Positions 4,279 to 47,000 of a stretch of 63,043 bases of DNA are shown here, one piece after another. Below the pieces are notes generated by a model that saw only the letters and a program-made list of their open reading frames with translations, was not told where the DNA came from and did no database searches. Source of the stretch: a virus. How positions within the stretch are numbered: position 1 is the stretch's first letter; each line of letters starts with the position of its first letter. The stretch spans positions 1 to 63,043 of IMG/VR virus record IMGVR_UViG_3300036945_000174. One strand, 5' to 3'. The translations under genes were made by a program, and so were the position numbers.

Positions 4279-4863
4279 CTAAATAAAACATCTTTTTTTT
4301 AATTCGTTTGTTTTTCTTCCAATACACAATGTATTTGACATTTCTGTAATAGAATCATAAAATATACCTGTGTATAAATCACAAACTAACGTTCCGTTAG
4401 CTCTTCTTAATTTATCTAAAACTTCTTTAGCATGAGTTACTTTTTTACCATACATAGGATTGTTTTCTCCCTGCATCCTTAGCGATGAATCATTACATTT
4501 AATCCCTTTATTCCAAGGAATATGACCTTTTTTAGCTTTGCTCATTTTTTCTTTAGATTCTAAAGTATGTTTAAATCCACTTTTCCCTCCATTAAAATAA
4601 TTCTTATTACAAAGATTTTCAAGACCTATTAAATTTATTAAAAATTCTTCTAACTCTAAAGAATCTATTTCTGATAAACTATCCTGTATAATATTTGAGT
4701 AATACCCATATTTTTTTACTGTATTTTTCCAATGTAAATTCCTTCCTGACTTAGATCTATATCTATTTCCCTTACCCTTACCAACGTAGAATATTTTATC
4801 GTCACTTTTTTTTCTATGTAAATAAACATAAAATATGTCTTTATTATCTTCCTTGACCAACAT
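4279..4863 (-). CDS. GIY-YIG-type endonuclease with NUMOD repeats
   Basis: The N-terminal ~85 residues fit a GIY-YIG nuclease: FYVYLHRKKSDDKIFYVGKGKGNRY carries the YVY…YVG core and the basic GKGNRYR segment, followed by a Glu-rich helix (SLELEEFLINLIG). Two NUMOD3-like DNA-binding motifs follow (KEKMSKAKKGHIPWNKG; GENNPMYGKK). The C-terminus has a NUMOD1-like motif (YDSITEMSNTLCIGRK). This is the architecture of free-standing homing endonucleases. It is more AT-rich than its neighbours and sits between a fibre-type gene and the lysis cassette, consistent with later insertion. It overlaps the 44-aa gene upstream by 20 nt. Confidence 0.8.
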   Translation of the reverse strand: MLVKEDNKDIFYVYLHRKKSDDKIFYVGKGKGNRYRSKSGRNLHWKNTVKKYGYYSNIIQDSLSEIDSLELEEFLINLIGLENLCNKNYFNGGKSGFKHTLESKEKMSKAKKGHIPWNKGIKCNDSSLRMQGENNPMYGKKVTHAKEVLDKLRRANGTLVCDLYTGIFYDSITEMSNTLCIGRKTNELKKRCFI

Positions 4864-7751: not shown

Positions 7752-8345
7752 ATGAAATTTACTAAAATAATAAAGAAAACCTACACAAGAGTCGAACCAA
7801 AGTCAGATTATCTAAAGTACTGGCGCATTGTTCGTATATGGGCAAGAGAAAAACACGGTCTAAGCTACTCAGACCTAGAGATGCTGCTATTTTTACATAG
7901 TGAGAGGCTTTTTAACAAGTCAAAATTTATAGAATTCAACAAGATGATGTCCTGGGACAACGTAAGATTTGCTAGACTGTACCGTGACGGGTGGATTAGC
8001 AAGTGGAGGGAACGTATCGGTAATGAAGCTACGTTATATGAGGTTTCATTGAAGGGTAGAAACCTTATAAAGGCTATCTACAAGAAGCTAGAAGGTGAGC
8101 AGACTATCTCAGAATCACCTAGTGCCAACCCGATGTTTCAAAAAAGAAACAGTGGGTACGCTATGGACCGTGATAAAACTATAATTCGTAAGATGAATCG
8201 TACAAGAAAAGAAAAAAAGAGGCTGTCTGATCTTGCTGAGCAAGAGTACCAGAAGCAGCCTCATGTTATTAAAAGAAGAAAGGAGATAACTCCTTATTTA
8301 GAGTACAAAAAGAGTCTAAAGAACAACGACGATGTCTCGCTCTAA
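7752..8345 (+). CDS. Winged-helix-like putative transcriptional regulator (197 aa)
   Basis: The only plus-strand gene in a 13-kb minus-strand arm. Residues ~20-110 look like a winged helix: helices in GLSYSDLEMLLFLHSERLF and FNKMMSWDNVRFARLYRDGW, then a wing (NEATLYEVSLKGRNLIKAI), reminiscent of MarR-type proteins. The C-terminal third is very basic. It is read from the symmetrical promoter at 7721, opposite the basic-protein genes, and its 3' end overlaps the end of groES by 30 nt on the other strand. Regulation of late genes is a reasonable guess, not shown. Confidence 0.6.
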   Translation: MKFTKIIKKTYTRVEPKSDYLKYWRIVRIWAREKHGLSYSDLEMLLFLHSERLFNKSKFIEFNKMMSWDNVRFARLYRDGWISKWRERIGNEATLYEVSLKGRNLIKAIYKKLEGEQTISESPSANPMFQKRNSGYAMDRDKTIIRKMNRTRKEKKRLSDLAEQEYQKQPHVIKRRKEITPYLEYKKSLKNNDDVSL

Positions 8346-8573
8346 TATAATCGTATAAGGAGTGTCGTTGATTAGCATGGTGTAACCAGCTCCCTTATCA
8401 TAATATATAAGGTCCCCCTCCTTTACACAGTCTACATTGGTGCCAGGTCGAACGACCTGGCCTTTTTTGTAGCGAAACTTTTCGTTGTCACTCCCTGATA
8501 AAAGCAGTCCAGACTCTGTCTGGATCTGCTCGTCGATTGAATTTATTACTACGTACTTATTTATTGGTTGCAT
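8316..8573 (-). CDS. groES: Co-chaperonin GroES-like protein (85 aa)
   Basis: A short Cpn10 homologue. Seen: TESGLLLSG in the position of the GroES mobile loop (GGIVLTG-type), then RYKKGQVVRPG, VKEGDLIYYDKGAGYTM and the terminal ILERDIVVVL strand. Length 85 aa against ~95 for bacterial GroES. It would cap the phage GroEL (or host GroEL) during folding, as T4 gp31 does for the capsid protein. It lies two genes downstream of groEL in the same operon, unusual in that the order is reversed and another gene intervenes. Confidence 0.85.
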   Translation of the reverse strand: MQPINKYVVINSIDEQIQTESGLLLSGSDNEKFRYKKGQVVRPGTNVDCVKEGDLIYYDKGAGYTMLINDTPYTIILERDIVVVL

Positions 8574-8574
8574 A

Positions 8575-8961
8575 CTAGTATAGACTCATAGTTAATAATT
8601 CTCTAATTATTTCATTGTCTGGATTAATAGCGTATCCAAGAGCAAATGATGCCGATACTTCGAACGACACGCCTGGTTTTTGCTTTACCCAGAACTCCTT
8701 TACGAATTCAGAGTCAATAATTTCATTTGTTTTCTCGTCTCTTGTTACTGTGAATAGCGCTGCTTTTACTTGTTTCATTTTATTTGATGTTACTGTTAGT
8801 TTTTGATTTGGAAATGGATCTCCCATTCCGACGTTTGATGATGTATTATATATTAGTCCTTGATTTGTAAATCCAGTACCTGTACTTACTCCTAAGTAAC
8901 TACTACTATTTGTATCCTTAAACGTAAGTGTTCCTGATGAATTCATTCTTGCTTGTTCCAT
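8575..8961 (-). CDS. Unknown protein with fibre-like N-terminus, between groEL and groES (128 aa)
   Basis: ATG 8961 overlaps the groEL stop by one base. Residues ~1-60 contain SSNVGMGDPFPNQKLTVTSN, close in pattern to the NVGIGTxxPxxKLT repeats of the tail fibre. From Met62 the sequence changes to a soluble alpha/beta domain (AALFTVTRDEKTNEIIDSEF…FALGYAINPDNEII). The C-terminal domain is unrecognised. The N-terminus may be a captured fibre fragment, with MKQVKAALF as the ancestral start. Confidence 0.7.
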   Translation of the reverse strand: MEQARMNSSGTLTFKDTNSSSYLGVSTGTGFTNQGLIYNTSSNVGMGDPFPNQKLTVTSNKMKQVKAALFTVTRDEKTNEIIDSEFVKEFWVKQKPGVSFEVSASFALGYAINPDNEIIRELLTMSLY

Positions 8962-10565
8962 TATGCTCTTGCCATTGTTATAATTGCGTTAGTACTAAGC
9001 ACTGTTGTAGATACCGATACGGCATTCTTCAGCGCGTTCTTTGTTACCTTTAATGGATCAATTACACCCATCTTGTACATGTCTCCGGTTGTCATGTTCT
9101 TGATATCGAATCCAACAGTATATCCTTGTAGTCCATCCATCAGCTCGTACCCGTCTAGTCCGGCGTTCTCGAATATCTGTAGTAGTGGTGCCTGAATAGC
9201 TCTTGCCACAATATGCATGGCCGCGTACTGCTCTGCGCTGATGTCCTCGATCATATCGTCTGCATCTGCAATGATCGCGTACGACTCATTAAACAGTGCT
9301 ACTCCGCCACCAGGTAGGATGCCCTCCTCCAGTGCAGATCGTACCGCGCATACCGCATCGTCTACCCTGTCCTTGCGTTCCTTTTGTTCTAGGTCAGAGT
9401 TTCCTCCGACGTGAATCACAGCTATTCCACCTGTCAAGCTGGCAATACGCTCCTTGATAAAGTCCTGGTCGTTCTTTTTATTACTCAAGTCGTGAGCCTG
9501 CCATAACTGAGTTACTCTTTCTTCTACCACGTCAGTGGTCGACTCTGATTTTATAATTGAAGCTGATTCTCTTCCAACTATTACACGCTTAGCCTTACCA
9601 AGTGATTCGATTGTCATAAGACTTAAATCATCTCCAGTCTGCTCTGAGAAGTACTTGGCACCTACTGCCAACGCAATATCGTTCATCAGTTCGTTTCTCT
9701 TATAACCAAACTCAGGTGGTGGGATGTTACAGAACTTAAGTCCTTTCTGTACTACGTTGATTGCCAGTGTGTTAATTACGTTTTGACTGCACGGCCCGAT
9801 GATCAATAGTTTCTTGCCAGTCTGGATCACGTCTCTAAGCACGTTCTCGATTGATAGGATGTTGTTGATCTCTTGATCCGTAACTAGAATGTGTACGTCC
9901 TCTAGTATGCACTCGTCCTTTCTGTGGTCGTTCACGAATAGTTGTGACGTGTATCCTCTGTTTACCTTGATACCGTTAGTGTACTCGCAGTAGGTCTCAG
10001 CCGTCTGTGAGTTCTCAACCGTTACGATACCGGTCTTACCCACCTTGTCGTACGCTTCAGAGATCAAATTACCAATCTCAGAATCGTTATTAGCAGATAT
10101 CGACGCCACGTTGTTTAACGTCTTTCCTGTTACTTTCTTTGAGCGCTTCTCTAGTCGGTTGATTAGCTTGTTTGTTGTGTCGTTGATCTGTCTAATCACC
10201 TCTGTCGTGTTCAGATTACTGGTGATCATGTCCTGACCGTGCTTTACCAGCGCCTCTGTTAGTACGATGGCCGTTGTGGTACCGTCACCAGCGCTTGTCG
10301 CGGTGCGGTCTGCCGCTTCCTTCATCATCTTTACCGCTAGGTTCTCTACTGGATCTAGTAGATCAATTGATTTAGCGACTGTTACACCGTCCTTAGTTAC
10401 TGTAATACCGTGCGTGTGGTTGATTGACTCGATCAGTACGGTCTTTCCGCGCGGTCCTAGTGTGCTCTTTACTGCCTTGGCGATCGTGGTGATGCCGTTG
10501 ATTAATTTTTCTCGTCCTTCTTGTTCAAAGTCTAGAACTTTTGGACTGTATCCGAAGTTTGTCAT
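8961..10565 (-). CDS. groEL: Phage chaperonin GroEL (534 aa)
   Basis: Full-length 60-kDa chaperonin. Seen: STLGPRGKTV near residue 35, the ATP-site loop ATSAGDGTTTAIVL near 90, an apical domain (about 190-370), and LEEGILPGGGVALF near 400. The GGM-rich C-terminal tail of bacterial GroEL is absent: the protein ends IITMARA. It would form an ATP-driven folding chamber, most plausibly for capsid or fibre subunits, with the small GroES at 8316-8573. Apical residues differ from typical host GroEL, suggesting dedicated substrates. Transcribed from the promoter at 11082-11111 with the two genes upstream of it. Confidence 0.95.
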   Translation of the reverse strand: MTNFGYSPKVLDFEQEGREKLINGITTIAKAVKSTLGPRGKTVLIESINHTHGITVTKDGVTVAKSIDLLDPVENLAVKMMKEAADRTATSAGDGTTTAIVLTEALVKHGQDMITSNLNTTEVIRQINDTTNKLINRLEKRSKKVTGKTLNNVASISANNDSEIGNLISEAYDKVGKTGIVTVENSQTAETYCEYTNGIKVNRGYTSQLFVNDHRKDECILEDVHILVTDQEINNILSIENVLRDVIQTGKKLLIIGPCSQNVINTLAINVVQKGLKFCNIPPPEFGYKRNELMNDIALAVGAKYFSEQTGDDLSLMTIESLGKAKRVIVGRESASIIKSESTTDVVEERVTQLWQAHDLSNKKNDQDFIKERIASLTGGIAVIHVGGNSDLEQKERKDRVDDAVCAVRSALEEGILPGGGVALFNESYAIIADADDMIEDISAEQYAAMHIVARAIQAPLLQIFENAGLDGYELMDGLQGYTVGFDIKNMTTGDMYKMGVIDPLKVTKNALKNAVSVSTTVLSTNAIITMARA

Positions 10566-10566
10566 A

Positions 10567-10818
10567 TTAAATTTTTTCGTAAGTTAATTCAAAGATATCT
10601 TTGTCGCATGGGTAGAACTCTCCTTTTATACCTTTAATAATATAGTCCTCTTCATATGCGCGCATGTTCCCTTCTAATGTTTTAACAGATATCTCACCCT
10701 CGTGTATCCATTGATAGTCTATATTATCTCCGGCAAACTCTCTAAGCTTATCTAATTGAGTAAACTCTATGATAAACTGAACCGCTTCGATTTCTATCGG
10801 TTTTTTTCTGTACTTCAT
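10567..10818 (-). CDS. Conserved phage protein MKYRKKP family (83 aa)
   Basis: Starts MKYRKKPIEIEAVQFIIEF and ends YIIKGIKGEFYPCDKDIFEL, a layout common in small phage proteins (MKYRKKP…[20 protein letters not shown]). Function unknown. It sits between the Acb2-like gene and groEL with 1-3 nt gaps, so it is part of the same operon. Confidence 0.8.
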   Translation of the reverse strand: MKYRKKPIEIEAVQFIIEFTQLDKLREFAGDNIDYQWIHEGEISVKTLEGNMRAYEEDYIIKGIKGEFYPCDKDIFELTYEKI

Positions 10819-11757: not shown

Positions 11758-11928
11758 TAAAAGCATCGGCGCCTGGGACATCCCGAGCCTAAACCGATGC
11801 CTTAGCGCCTTTTTGAACGACGTCGAGAAAGCTAACTCTATCTCCTATACGATGAGAACAACCTGAGCGCACTGATCTTACGGGAAGTGTGTTGTGTTTT
11901 ACGATCCACTCGCGAGCGTGGCTGTTGA

Positions 11929-12014
11929 TACCGGTGAGAGACTCGAACTCTCATCTACTTCTAAAAGTAATGCTTACCCTAGGCAGTATTTATTCCTACT
12001 TACACCAACCGGTA
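11929..12014 (-). tRNA. tRNA-like domain, long variable arm, anticodon unclear
   Basis: Minus-strand 86 nt. Perfect 7-bp acceptor TACCGGT/ACCGGTA; D arm GTGT…ATAC with A14, G18G19 and A21; long variable arm TACTT-TTAG-AAGTA; and perfect T arm GAGAG-TTCGAGT-CTCTC. The anticodon arm is poor (4 bp at best, with GGG or AGG centred in the loop and no U33), and no CCA is encoded. It may be a decayed tRNA or a tRNA mimic within the larger RNA. Confidence 0.5.
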
Positions 12015-12168
12015 CTATTCCACTAAGGCAGCGTCATCCTTAGTCGCACTTCGATAGTTGCTTATAACATGAGCTTCATGTACTATCACGTTTCGAGTTC
12101 TTTATCGACCACCTCTGAAGGTCACTCCGCACGGCGTGTTTTTCCGTTTAACCGCGTAACGCTTATTG

Positions 12169-12247
12169 TGTCAGGGCCGGACTCGAACCGGATAAGCAAC
12201 CAGTATTTCATGGATTCGGGACCATCCCTCATTACACCCACCTGACC
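12169..12247 (-). tRNA. Second tRNA-like domain (acceptor and T arm only convincing)
   Basis: Minus-strand 79 nt. Acceptor GTCAGG/CCTGAC (6 bp) and T arm CCGG-TTCGAGT-CCGG are clear. The middle does not fold into a standard D and anticodon arm (GGGA/TCCC and AATC/GGTT helices instead). It is 155 nt from the first tRNA-like unit in the same structured region. Confidence 0.4.
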
Positions 12248-12401
12248 TTACGGTTAGTTGTTTAGTAGCATCTGCACCGCTAAGCAGATTTTATTACCGA
12301 TGAACAACTACGTCGAGAGTTTAATATTCACTGCAACTCACAAGCGTTCCCTAACATCAGAGACCAATCTTACAAGTTTAACGTGCATGTAAGAGCACTG
12401 T

Positions 12402-12623
12402 TTATTGTACAACCTTAATTACATTACCGTTTTTACCTATGACTACGGTCAAGTCGAATTGTTTATCCAGGTAGTTCATTATCTCGTGAACATCCCCGTT
12501 CATAAAGAACATGTGGAAGTGATTGAAGTGAATGTTCCTACCCGTCTTCTCTATAAAGTAACGATGGAACCAGCTGATCGGCATGTCGTCCTGCGTTCGT
12601 AACTTAATGTATTCGTCTTTCAT
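12402..12623 (-). CDS. Hypothetical protein, leaderless candidate (73 aa)
   Basis: MKDEYIKLRTQDDMPISWFH followed by an aromatic/His-rich stretch (NIHFNHFHMFFMNGD) and a beta-rich end. No family recognised. The promoter box at 12628 leaves only four bases before the ATG. The structured RNA begins right after its stop. Confidence 0.65.
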   Translation of the reverse strand: MKDEYIKLRTQDDMPISWFHRYFIEKTGRNIHFNHFHMFFMNGDVHEIMNYLDKQFDLTVVIGKNGNVIKVVQ

Positions 12624-12627
12624 TTGG

Positions 12628-12635
12628 CAAATATA
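12628..12635 (-). promoter_or_regulatory. -7 box TATATTTG, leaderless arrangement
   Basis: Minus-strand TATATTTG, then CCAA, then ATG 12623. The box-to-ATG spacing equals that at 11496 and 19454. It could drive both the 73-aa gene and the structured RNA behind it. Confidence 0.55.
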
Positions 12636-15785: not shown

Positions 15786-15926
15786 GAAGAGGTGGCGAAA
15801 AAGGAAGACGCTAAATACTTAATATGATTTAACTTATGGAGTTAAGTATAAAAAATCCATCCATTGTAAATATCGTTTAAAATTATGATAAAAATCATAG
15901 TGCAGGTTCGAGTCCTGCCCTCTTCA
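15786..15926 (+). tRNA. tRNA-Leu(UAA)-like element with ~57-nt insertion
   Basis: Acceptor GAAGAGG/CCTCTTC is perfect, with discriminator A. The D arm TGGCGAAAAAGGAAGACGC has the Leu-type pattern. The anticodon loop CTTAATA presents UAA on a stem with one bulge. A variable arm AACT-TATGG-AGTT follows. The T arm GCAGG-TTCGAGT-CCTGC is perfect. Between variable arm and T arm lie about 57 extra AU-rich nt including a TATGAT-AAAA-ATCATA hairpin. Without them the length (84) is normal for tRNA-Leu. No CCA encoded. A functional tRNA would need excision or tolerance of the insert. Confidence 0.6.
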
Positions 15927-16398: not shown

Positions 16399-16838
<440 letters not shown>

Positions 16839-24364: not shown

Positions 24365-24844
24365 ATGGAAAAAGTGTTTAAAAAATATAAAGATTTTTAC
24401 ATAAGTAATTACGGAGATGTGATAGGTAAACGTGGTAATGTATTAAAAAACATTAAAAAGAAAGACGGATATTTAGCAGTTAATATTTACATTGATGGAG
24501 TTAGGAAACAAATGAAAATTCATAGATTAGTAGCATTATCGCATATATTAAATCCAGAAGACAAACCTCAAGTAAACCATATTAATGGAATAAAGACTGA
24601 CAATAGAGTAGAGAATCTCGAATGGTGTAGCCCTTCAGAAAATTCAATACATGCATATAAAAACGGACTAATTAATTCAGGAGAAACCCATTCTATGTCT
24701 AAGTTAAATAGATCAGAAGTTGAGAAATTAAAAAAAGAAAACTTAAAAGGAATTTATTTTCAGAGAGAATTAGCAGAATTATTTGGAATAAGTCAAACTC
24801 AAGTTGGCAAGATAATTAATAATAAATCATGGAGGTATAAATAA
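24365..24844 (+). CDS. NUMOD4-HNH homing endonuclease (159 aa)
   Basis: An N-terminal NUMOD4-type segment (YKDFYISNYGDVIGKRGNVL) precedes the HNH core: HRLVALSHILNPEDKPQVNHINGIKTDNRVENLEW, with catalytic His pairs and the Asn. A C-terminal helix-turn-helix (RELAELFGISQTQVGKIINN) provides DNA recognition. Free-standing phage homing enzyme. Much more AT-rich than the primase-helicase gene, consistent with recent insertion. Confidence 0.9.
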   Translation: MEKVFKKYKDFYISNYGDVIGKRGNVLKNIKKKDGYLAVNIYIDGVRKQMKIHRLVALSHILNPEDKPQVNHINGIKTDNRVENLEWCSPSENSIHAYKNGLINSGETHSMSKLNRSEVEKLKKENLKGIYFQRELAELFGISQTQVGKIINNKSWRYK

Positions 24845-28464: not shown

Positions 28465-28876
28465 AAAAGGACAACAGTACAGATGTATTAAGGATTATAT
28501 AATGGATGACGGCACACTAGCGTATAAATCTGGATGGACGTATGAAGCCACAGGTAAAAATATACTACCTTCTTTGTTTGATCCAACACATCAGATGGAT
28601 AAGTCAGATGATTTTAAAGATCACTTCAAGAGAGTAAAAAACAACCCAGAGGCTTATATACAGAACATTCCTGTAATATTTGATACCGTAAAGGTAGACT
28701 CTGTTGTTGAGTCGGTTATAAAAAAATTTAAGAGTAGATCTGATGTGGGAATCAAAAAGTATGGTACCACACTAGCGGGAAATGATAAATTAACAACGCT
28801 ACAATGGATAGATGAGGCTCAAGCTGAAGCTATGGATTTCTGTTTGTATTTGGAACGTCTTAAAAAAGAATTTTAA
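28451..28876 (+). CDS. Conserved phage protein with MazG-like C-terminal helices (141 aa)
   Basis: The N-terminal ~55 residues look like a small beta domain (KGQQYRCIKDYIMDDGTLAY). The C-terminal ~55 residues (RSDVGIKKYGTTLAGNDKLTT…AQAEAMDFCLYLERLKK) match the R…GxxKYG(T)TL…ExxDxxxYL pattern of small phage proteins related to nucleotide pyrophosphohydrolases. Enzymatic function is uncertain. Confidence 0.7.
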   Translation: MKTIKKGQQYRCIKDYIMDDGTLAYKSGWTYEATGKNILPSLFDPTHQMDKSDDFKDHFKRVKNNPEAYIQNIPVIFDTVKVDSVVESVIKKFKSRSDVGIKKYGTTLAGNDKLTTLQWIDEAQAEAMDFCLYLERLKKEF

Positions 28877-29592
28877 TGAACAATAGAAAGGTATATATTT
28901 ACAAAATAACTAATCCTGAAGGTAAAGTATATATTGGATCGACTGTTAATATTAAAGACAGAAAGTATAGATATAAAACAGCTAGGGTTAAAAGCCAAGT
29001 AAAAGTATATAACTCTATATTAAAATATGGTTTTGACAATCACAATTTTGAAATTATATTTGAATGTGATGAATCAAATAGAAATATCTACGAATCATTT
29101 TATGGAGAAAAGTTTGATGTTATAGGAGATAACGGATTAAACTTATCACTTCCAGCTTCAGGTGAATCTTATCCAGCTATGTCTTCAGAAACAAAAGCAA
29201 AAATAGGACTGGCACATAAAGGTAAGAAAATATCAGAATCTCAAAAACTATCTATTTCTAATAGTTCTAAAAAATATTTAGAAAATAATCCTCATCCTAT
29301 GTTAAATAAAACTCCTTGGAATAAAGGAAAGTCCTTTCTAAAAGGAGAATTAAATCCGATGTATGGTGTTAAAAGAAGTTTAGAATGGAAGATAAATCAC
29401 AGCTTATTAACAAAATCAATAGCTAAAAAAGGAGTTGATCATTTTAATTCTAAAATAGTATTAGATACTTACTTAGGTATTTTTTATTATAGCTGTAAGG
29501 AAGTTTCTGAATGCTACAATATAAAATACAGTACTTTAAAAGGAAAGCTTAATGGAACATCAAAAAACAATACTAACTTTAAATACGTATAG
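28876..29592 (+). CDS. GIY-YIG homing endonuclease with NUMOD3 motifs (238 aa)
   Basis: KVYIYKITNPEGKVYIGSTVNIKDRKY carries the GIY-YIG core (YIY…YIG) and the Arg. A catalytic Glu follows in NIYESFYGEKF. Then NUMOD3 repeats (SSETKAKIGLAHKGKKIS; LNKTPWNKGKS; GELNPMYGVKRS) and a C-terminal HTH-like NUMOD1 end. Same architecture as the gene at 4279-4863. Very AT-rich relative to neighbours. The ATG overlaps the preceding stop by one base. Confidence 0.9.
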   Translation: MNNRKVYIYKITNPEGKVYIGSTVNIKDRKYRYKTARVKSQVKVYNSILKYGFDNHNFEIIFECDESNRNIYESFYGEKFDVIGDNGLNLSLPASGESYPAMSSETKAKIGLAHKGKKISESQKLSISNSSKKYLENNPHPMLNKTPWNKGKSFLKGELNPMYGVKRSLEWKINHSLLTKSIAKKGVDHFNSKIVLDTYLGIFYYSCKEVSECYNIKYSTLKGKLNGTSKNNTNFKYV

Positions 29593-44042: not shown

Positions 44043-47000
44043 TTAAACGTTACAATCGCATGCTAAAGCACTATCGGTAGTGTCGTAACATAAATCAATA
44101 GAATAATGAGGTGTTTCTCCACATAACTCGCATGCTGCAATTCTATCAGTAGCGTCGTAACATAAATCTAAGCTGTAAGCATTTGTTAGATCCCAAACTA
44201 AATATAAATACTGATATCCATTAGGATTATTATAAACAAATGACGACTCGTACTTCCCTGTAACAGGATTAACTATTGGTGTAGCCTCTACTAGTAAAGG
44301 CCTTAATGTATTTATCTGTGATTCTGTATATAATGTATTAGATACTAAGTACTTAAATGAATTTGCTAACGGATCAAAATTAAAAGTATCTGTAATATAC
44401 TTTTCAGATTGCATTTTAACAATACTTCCGATTGCAGGAATAACTCCTACTGAAGGTTGATCAGTATTAGAATCATATAACGACACTCCGTCACTTTCTA
44501 GTAATACAAAGTCTATATTAGTTGGGCTTGTATATCCATCAATAGTCCAGTTATAATTATTATGAATAGTTTCTCCCTCGTTAGATGGAGAGTTAATTAC
44601 CATTCGTATAACTGTTATAGGATCTGCCACGGTGCAATTAGATATAAGAACGTAAGTAGCCTCTTCAGGAGTAATTGTAACAGTTGCAAATGTAGGATTA
44701 ACTTTTGTTTTGTTAAATGTTAATGTGCCTGATCCAGATACAACCTCATCTATAACTGTAATGCCGTCGTAAGATACATCAACATTTGCTGATCCATTTT
44801 CAAAGTTATAGTCAAAAGAAGCCTCTCCAATTACGTTTCCAAACTCTAAATTAAATAGCAACTCTCCATTTGCAGTGTCTTGAGATATAGTAAATCCACA
44901 CTCTAAAACATCTATAGGAGTTGGTAATTTGTTATCAGTTAGAGACAACACGTACTCTTTTAAGTACGGATCATAACCACCTATTTTTTGATAGTTTACT
45001 TTATCTTTGAACTCATCCCTAAACCAACCATTCATTCCTAGTTGAGATATAGGAGTTAAAGCATCAGCTTGAGAGGCTCCACCTTTTAGGTTTATTACAG
45101 ATGTTCTTTTAGAATCTGTAAAATAAATATCCTCTCCCCACGCAGCAAAACTAGCAGCATCATTACTAATTCCGTACTCCTCTATTCTAGTTATCTGAGT
45201 TCCAAGTACCTCAGGAACAGACGTAATAGCTCCACCGCCTGCTGCATCAGAAAGTAAATTCTTCTCTACAAGTACGTAAGATATTTTGTCCTCCTGTAAC
45301 GTTAGTACGTCTTTCTTTCTTCCATGAAGTATGTTAATTGGGCCAAATGATTTTTCACAGTCCTTGAAGTTAGCTAATGCTAGGTTAAATTCATTTAACT
45401 TATTAACGTTAGTTTCTTCATTGTATACTCCACTATATGTTATTCCAGCGTATCTGTGGGCCTCTTTAAAGTCCTCTTGAGATACAGCGGTAACTCTACT
45501 TCCAAGATAGAACGGAGCTCCAGTTAACGAGTCTCCTATCTTATAGCTCTCAACTCCATTGCCAAATGTAAAACAGTCAAAGAAGTTTAAGTTTACAGTT
45601 GCAAAAGCATTAGATATTGATTGATTAACAACGTTACCTTGGTGGTATCCGTCAATAATATCAAATGATTCACTTCCCTCGAAGTAAGTCTCACCATTAG
45701 CTTCAGCAGCTTCTGTTTCAAATACCATTATAGACTCAGCTCTCTGAACCTGAATATGACAAAAAACTCTTGAAACTCTTCTATCTACTCCGCCACAATT
45801 TGGAGTACCACTCTTCATTACAAAGAACAATCTACCATTAGCAGAGTCTTGTTGAAACTGATATTGATTAGTACCTGGAATAGTTGGTATGTTACCAGTA
45901 TATGTTCCTATAGTTTCTAAAAATTCATTTTCATTAACAGTAGCGTCACCTCCGGTTGAATTGCCAGAAGTTAAGTCAATATGATCTCCGGTTATAAATG
46001 CAAATAAGCTATCATAATCTTGAGAGGCTGTAAATGATTTATCAAAAGTATATGTTCTTTCTCCACAACTATCTCCTCTAGAACTTCTAGTTACTTTAAA
46101 GTTTATGTTTATTAAACTTCCAGCAGGGACGTCATAAGGCATAAACTCTAACTCTCCAGGATCTCCAAATAAAGGATTATCTATGTAGCATGGATAGGAT
46201 AAGTTAGCATAGTTTCCACCTTCACTTATCTCCCCTTCATCTATAAAAGAATTTTCAGTATAATTAGCAGAGAAGTTTGAAGGTTTAAGTTTCATATACA
46301 AACCAGCGGGCTCTATAATATCTTTCTCTGCTGCATTCTTATTTCCTTCAATAAAGTCTTTACCTTTAGCTTCTAATGCAAGGACCTTTGTTTTTACTAA
46401 ATTTCTAAGAACACCATTCGAATCTGCTTTTACAATTAGAGTAGAGTTTTCTTGAACCTTACTTCTATTATCACCTTCTAATTTAAACCAAGTAAACCCA
46501 GAGTCTTCTTGAAAATAAATATTAGAGTACACTACTTGGTACTGACTCTTAGACGGCTTTACTACAAACTTATATTTAGTAGCCCAGCTTGGAGCTAAAC
46601 TATTTATGTTTACTCTTATATAGTTCTTTTTATCTGAATTATACGCAGGCACAAAAACTGTATTATTAGTATCGACTAATGCAGTAGAACTACGACCGTA
46701 CTCGTCCATATACACAATTGCAACCTCATAATCCCTATTACTATGCAAGCTTTGTTTTGCCCCTAACTGAGAGAATGTAGCAGATATTATAGCGCTTGAA
46801 AGGTATTCATAAGCATAAACAAATACACCTGGAGAAGTTTCAAAACTAAATTTTAACGCAGGTATTTGAATACCTATCATATCTGATCCTAACGCAGCTG
46901 ATATAACAAAAGATCCGTCTACATTTGATATCCCACTTCCAACCTCATTCCATCCAGACTTAGTAATTATTTGACAATTAAAAAAATCTGTTAATGAAGT

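Follow-up and report, generated by a model that had tools for sequence, protein, structure and literature searches.

Positions 11758 to 12400 of the window, as we call the whole 63,043-base IMG/VR virus record IMGVR_UViG_3300036945_000174, probably hold a small RNA array whose members retain the outer shell of a tRNA and in which the decoding arm is replaced by modular structures. We likewise regard it as probable that the stretch forms the 3' part of a tRNA-type operon of the phage whose present products are non-decoding RNAs with a tRNA frame. The units have this anatomy, their stems covary, and their parts are exchanged as modules between phages.

Two tRNA-like units and their surroundings

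On the minus strand, the array is flanked by a groEL/groES block (8316-10565) on one side and by a 73-aa ORF (12402-12623, minus strand) on the other. As the original prediction had stated, the stretch is free of genes and contains only overlapping ORFs, none of them longer than 58 aa. ARAGORN called no tRNA gene in this region, and the Rfam tRNA model did not give any match within 11758-12400. According to its capsid protein and terminase, the phage is nearest to the uncultured podovirus MW202828 (68% and 73% identity, respectively), followed by phages of Maribacter, Flavobacterium (elemo), Cellulophaga and Tenacibaculum. Judging from these relatives, its host is most likely a flavobacterium.

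Two units had been predicted to combine excellent acceptor and T arms with an abnormal middle. Unit 2 (U2; 11929-12014, minus strand, 86 nt) fully conforms to this description. Compared to a canonical tRNA, with a 7-bp acceptor stem and a 5-bp T arm carrying TTCRANY, it is paired at 7/7 positions of the acceptor (TACCGGT/ACCGGTA) and 5/5 of the T stem (GAGAG-TTCGAGT-CTCTC), and the scanner that detected it gave 0 matches in 2.6 Mb of shuffled sequence. Unit 1 (U1; 12168-12247, minus strand, 79 nt) is paired at 6/7 positions of the acceptor (GTCAGG/CCTGAC, with a 1:72 mismatch) and 4/5 of the T stem (CCGG-TTCGAGT-CCGG). On its own it is weak (fold z +0.39), and its arms are confirmed by covariation. 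An anticodon arm, i.e. a 5-bp stem with a 7-nt loop and U33, was found neither in the U1 sequence nor, by the scanner, in U2. The reading as a non-coding, phage-borne, minus-strand element containing tRNA-like units with wrong anticodon arms is thus upheld.

The covariation of U1 became apparent from a comparative alignment of its relatives. To collect these, IMG/VR was scanned with the interior motif only, the acceptor and T arm not being part of the pattern, which yielded 13 contigs. Nine distinct phage sequences, which lack an anticodon arm, share the motif GTAATGAGGG..GG..CC.AA almost without change, while their acceptors differ (AGTCAGG/CCTGACT, GGTCAAC/GTTGACC, GGCCAAG/GTTGGCC and GGTGGAA/TTCCACC); three further matches with an extra insert (L354-L356) were left out of the count. 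With the borders of three of the nine sequences (L002, L353 and L357) shifted by one base by hand, 98 of 108 acceptor and T cells are paired, whereas shuffling of the 3' letters between the sequences leaves 73% paired (maximum 81.5%), and 9 of 12 acceptor/T pairs have changed on both sides. U1 is therefore confirmed as a member of a conserved RNA family with covarying acceptor and T stems. The 1:72 mismatch occurs in the U1 copies of the window and L006 and is absent from L352, L361 and L362. We expected U1 to be better conserved than the neighboring spacer, which was not found (96% versus 95% identity), and a search for the family in cultured phages returned none.

For U2, the copy in L006 has the same acceptor and a T stem of AAGGG/CCCTT instead of GAGAG/CTCTC, corresponding to two compensatory changes. 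At the position of the anticodon arm, the L006 copy bears a short hairpin (GATGG-TTGAT-CCATC). The interior of the window copy is longer and less clear, and its D-loop GG is not clear either, which suggests that this copy may be remodeled or decaying.

The units are embedded in further conserved modules. Directly 5' of U1 is a leader hairpin module of about 64 nt (12248-12311, minus strand) with a helix GTTGTT/AACAAC and a hairpin ATCTGC/GCAGAT. In six phages, the window included, 99% of the cells are paired, both helices show compensatory changes, and four pairs have changed on both sides versus 1.6 in shuffles (fold z -2.62). A possible pseudoknot, CGGT/ACCG, is invariant in the sequences compared. 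The spacer between the units (12015-12167, minus strand) is 95% identical to that of L006 and contains the candidate hairpins ACATGAAGCTCATGT and CTAAGG/CCTTAG; its fold is unremarkable (z +0.33 for 12020-12167). In L003, L006 and L007, the spacer module after U2 (11805-11928, minus strand) has been retained behind two different units. Its hairpin CCAC..GTGG reads CCCC/GGGG in L007, a compensated change noted by eye, as is that in the spacer following tRNA-Met in sister phages (ACCTTCG/CGAAGGT versus ACCTACC/GGTAGGT). The array closes with a hairpin (GCATCGG..CCGATGC-TTTT; 11759-11804, minus strand) which, as predicted, resembles a terminator. It ends the arrays of the group, folds more stably than shuffles (z -3.1), and its stem is kept in eight aligned sequences, seven of them from sister phages.

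Upstream of the array, every one of the eight sister phages found to bear an array also has the 73-aa ORF. A search for relatives of the ORF returned eight, all from array phages, and the ORF has no match in Pfam or PHROG. ORF and array are probably located on one transcript. Just upstream of the ORF, a pattern scan identified a candidate promoter, TATATTTG (12628-12635, minus strand), that fits the Bacteroidota -7 element TAnnTTTG; the number of TAnnTTTG occurrences in the region is not clearly above chance.

Independent exchange of units and spacers among sister phages

Searches with groEL and the 73-aa ORF identified sister phages (L002-L007, L084/L090 and L087/L091). Their corresponding region holds a mosaic array of tRNA type with one or two tRNA-like units, spacers and the same terminator, in the order leader, U1, spacer, U2, spacer, tRNA-Met and terminator; the leader hairpin stands immediately 5' of the first unit in six of them. 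The tRNA-Met is a true tRNA (anticodon CAT), which is present in the arrays of L002, L003, L005, L006, L007 and L090 and missing from the window. The type of unit varies among the arrays (GTCAGG, GACCGAG, GATTGAG or TACCGGT), and units and spacers are swapped independently of each other. In L352, the U1 homologue is located inside a tRNA cluster and ends 5 nt before a true tRNA. In L003 (6927-7005), L007 (5845-5923) and L095 (1548-1624), a long hairpin with the common loop TATTGAAARAYATA and stems that vary between the phages takes the place of the anticodon arm. ORFs resembling HNH endonucleases adjoin the array in L002 and L005; within the window, likely GIY-YIG and HNH homing endonuclease genes, judged from sequence only, are found at 4279-4863 (minus strand), 24365-24844 and 28876-29592 (both plus strand).

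The original prediction had regarded the whole stretch, with its at least ten long complementary pairs, as a candidate for a single large, ornate RNA with tRNA-like inserts, possibly a new member of the GOLLD or ROOL RNAs, of which its size, phage setting and inserts are reminiscent, or a new class. Both RNAs occur in phages near tRNA genes and are of unknown function (PMC12286853). Covariance-model searches of 1.3 kb at E≤10 with permissive filters returned no match to GOLLD (the Rfam model covers its conserved 3' half), ROOL, YrlA, tmRNA or any other Rfam family, which speaks against membership in the former two. The minus strand of the 671-nt stretch folds with an MFE of -189.5 versus -187.7 for shuffles (z -0.24), the plus strand with a z of -1.85. 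As the whole fold is no more stable than that of shuffles, many complementary pairs alone prove nothing, and we dropped whole-region folding as evidence for a large RNA; what stands of the ten pairs are single helices that could be compared between phages, such as those of the leader. One larger, multi-domain structured RNA that is similar to GOLLD or ROOL in function and spans leader, units and spacers would account for the compensated helices in leader and spacers and for the length and partial structure of the spacers, and tRNAs are possibly carried in the GOLLD linker (PMC12286853). However, the array lacks a covariance-model match and a single large conserved fold, its units and spacers recombine independently among the sisters, and the unit of L352 stands within a tight tRNA cluster, which renders such an RNA improbable. 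Independent exchange, the tRNA-Met within the array and the tight spacing in L352 rather indicate the behavior of a tRNA operon that is cut into separate RNAs.

tRNA-framed units in other phages

A third unit of the window lies outside the array (15786-15926, plus strand, 140 nt). It has intact D and T arms and an acceptor of GAAGAGG/CCTCTTC, leaving 90 nt for the anticodon and variable arms. The Rfam tRNA model matches it with 32.3 bits, the anticodon arm remaining unmatched; it also matches our scanner and folds stably (z -3.84). The unit is near-identical in L003, L006 and L007, and the same frame occurs with other inserts in L002 and L004.

To determine how widespread such units are, we used a scanner requiring an acceptor with at least 6/7 paired positions, T8, a D arm with GG and a T arm on the stretches from two IMG/VR pattern scans (104 and at least 120) and on all other loci fetched. 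This revealed at least 251 distinct non-canonical units at at least 159 loci that have an acceptor, D arm and T arm and another sequence for the anticodon arm; they were deduplicated by identical sequence only, so that related contigs remain among them. Up to 11 units were counted per locus among the matches listed. As the scanner imposes acceptor pairing and the broad patterns impose the D/T consensus, only the excess of the acceptor AGTCAGG and the insert-based scans are free of this bias. The frame AGTCAGG...CCTGACT, which lies outside the scan patterns, encloses at least 102 units at at least 64 loci with mostly unrelated inserts. These units share their D arm with a bacterial tRNA-Leu (ACCCAGG, anticodon CAA), making this tRNA a plausible ancestor. 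Neither pattern, searched in its exact form, matched in 295 genomes of one bacterial class, the Bacteroidia, and one unit from a prophage-like contig was sought in E. coli genomes and not found. The units were thus restricted to phages in the samples searched. The suggestion that this might be a new class is upheld. A full-text literature search, subscription papers and preprints excluded, did not find a description of the class; it may already have been described elsewhere. Within the class, U1 shares its insert with the nine-sequence family and has an atypical D arm, while U2 possesses the frame and an insert that was not found elsewhere; both are among the weaker examples, and one or both could be decaying.

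Among the matches listed, the inserts clustered into 18 families, all but one of which are common to several loci and three of which occur in clearly different acceptor stems. Family 9 comprises nearly one insert in 15 phage contigs, set in the frames AGTCAGG, ATTAAAG, GGTTAGG and GACCGAG, the latter in a sister of the window phage. One insert in several frames and one frame with many inserts show that the two parts move between units as modules and that both are kept. In L188 (12546-12667), L190 (2852-2972) and L192 (1365-1485), a second T-arm-like hairpin is present inside the insert, giving a nested or double frame.

This conservation bears on whether the units are merely phage tRNA genes that have fallen out of use and drift. 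Phage tRNA arrays do turn over rapidly, the tRNA-Met found in the sisters is gone from the window, and the interior of the window's U2 is remodeled. However, changes in the acceptor and T stems are compensated, unrelated frames contain conserved inserts, the scanner found nothing in shuffled sequence, and decay would not delete the anticodon arm every time and leave the acceptor, D and T arms untouched; we therefore consider decay improbable. Slightly less probable still is that the units act as processing punctuation only, with the spacers as the functional small RNAs. An anticodon arm is not required by RNase P or RNase Z, and the spacer after U2 is kept behind different units, but phages in which the flanks of the units differ greatly have conserved unit interiors, and many loci possess a single unit. 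We give very little credit to tRNA genes with small introns in the anticodon arm that are spliced to normal tRNAs: the inserts do sit at the anticodon position, and in 39 of the 156 long units among the matches listed, versus 18.7 expected, the 3' part of the insert could pair with nucleotides 27-31, allowing for a minority of this kind, but 37 of the units listed have at most 20 nt between the D and T arms and hence cannot accommodate an anticodon arm together with a variable loop, Rfam returned no group I intron, the two array units of the window span only 79 and 86 nt, and insert sequences are conserved while frames swap.

tRNA mimicry and a putative maturation route

The units are very likely frame-plus-insert, non-decoding RNAs. 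By sequence, those of the array appear to be a variant of tRNA-mimic RNA outside the GOLLD, ROOL, YrlA and tmRNA families and, by analogy, their mode of action would be closest to that of a tRNA mimic fitted with an extra domain. The bacterial Y RNA YrlA is modular as well, with one domain mimicking the acceptor, D and T arms of a tRNA and a second, the basal stem at its 5' and 3' ends, binding Rsr (PMC8394870). The phage units resemble YrlA in combining such a mimic with a second domain, but carry the latter at the anticodon position and not as a basal stem. YrlA gave no Rfam match in the region, and a link to Ro/TROVE proteins was rejected, as the phage record contains no TROVE/Rsr gene. With tmRNA, the units share an acceptor and T arm, a long insert and the lack of an anticodon arm. 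In contrast to tmRNA, they have no G3:U70 and no visible tag frame, and the Rfam tmRNA models did not match in the region, while the same method detects the tmRNA of L376. The tRNA-Other of Bacillus cereus is tRNA-like, works outside translation and is part of a larger transcript (PMC3399842), but differs in being chromosomal and in keeping a Trp anticodon. RNA C of phage T4 (species 1 RNA) is a stable RNA without known function from the phage tRNA cluster (PMC3014915, PMC9697503). We found a perfect T arm, CCGGG-TTCGAAT-CCCGG, close to the 3' end of this RNA (NC_000866, 70908-71046), which may offer a clue to its function. RNA C differs from the units in its length of 139 nt, its imperfect acceptor pairing and the lack of a canonical D arm by the scanner.

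For RNase P, RNase Z/3' processing and CCA addition, a substrate must have its acceptor, T and D arms but can do without an anticodon arm. Since these enzymes read just the arms that the units retain, the units are likely matured as tRNAs, as far as can be extrapolated from tRNA biology. Gene order and the conserved terminator suggest that minus-strand transcription would pass the 73-aa ORF and stop at the 11759 terminator. Host RNase P, 3' tRNA-processing and CCA-adding enzymes may then excise the units, in agreement with the 5-nt spacing in L352 and the maintained stems. The mature RNA would be a stable, L-shaped frame with a different domain at the position of the anticodon arm. If, as we infer, it does not decode, it should act outside translation, perhaps by offering a host or phage factor its inserted domain, its acceptor end or the tRNA elbow. 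A fixed partner protein was sought by clustering the ORFs of 183 unit-bearing loci and rejected, as the top family occurred in 10 loci among the matches listed and none in more. That no protein family is enriched makes a dedicated phage partner less likely and points to host factors or to the RNA acting directly. With low confidence, we favor an RNA that engages a host factor for tRNA handling or defense, as its structured ligand or as a decoy; a role specifically as anti-host decoy appears rather unlikely. More generally, phages of several host groups could conceivably use a constant tRNA shell to display interchangeable structured domains, an arsenal of RNA effectors against host factors, which is a tentative proposal. 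If the units are non-decoding effectors, they would constitute a widespread layer of phage-host interaction that is testable in cultured phages, and would extend tRNA mimicry as in tmRNA, YrlA and T4 RNA C to a large modular class.

Such genes are dropped by annotation tools, labeled tRNA-Undet or assigned an amino acid. The cultured Tenacibaculum phage pT24 carries two copies of a GGTTGTA unit (192032-192110 and 192399-192477), annotated as tRNA-Undet, and a Flavobacterium elemo phage (NC_055852) has one unit at 10495-10570 annotated as tRNA-Ala in which a standard anticodon arm was not found. Seventeen Enterococcus phage records (and more in part) contain an unannotated RNA of about 205 nt framed by GTCACTG/CAGTGAC, which is 95-100% identical between 39-kb and 150-kb phages and which, given its T loop TGCAAAT, is a less certain member of the class. 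In Enterococcus phage A2 (L376; MT856905, 45199-48227 reversed), a tmRNA (1145-1495) is directly followed by the tRNA-framed RNA of about 205 nt (about 1495-1700; 46529-46733 in the phage genome). Finally, the window encodes an 80-aa ORF (16596-16838, plus strand) with two Cys motifs resembling a bacterial 2x[4Fe-4S] ferredoxin, which is unusual for a phage and kept in the sister phages.
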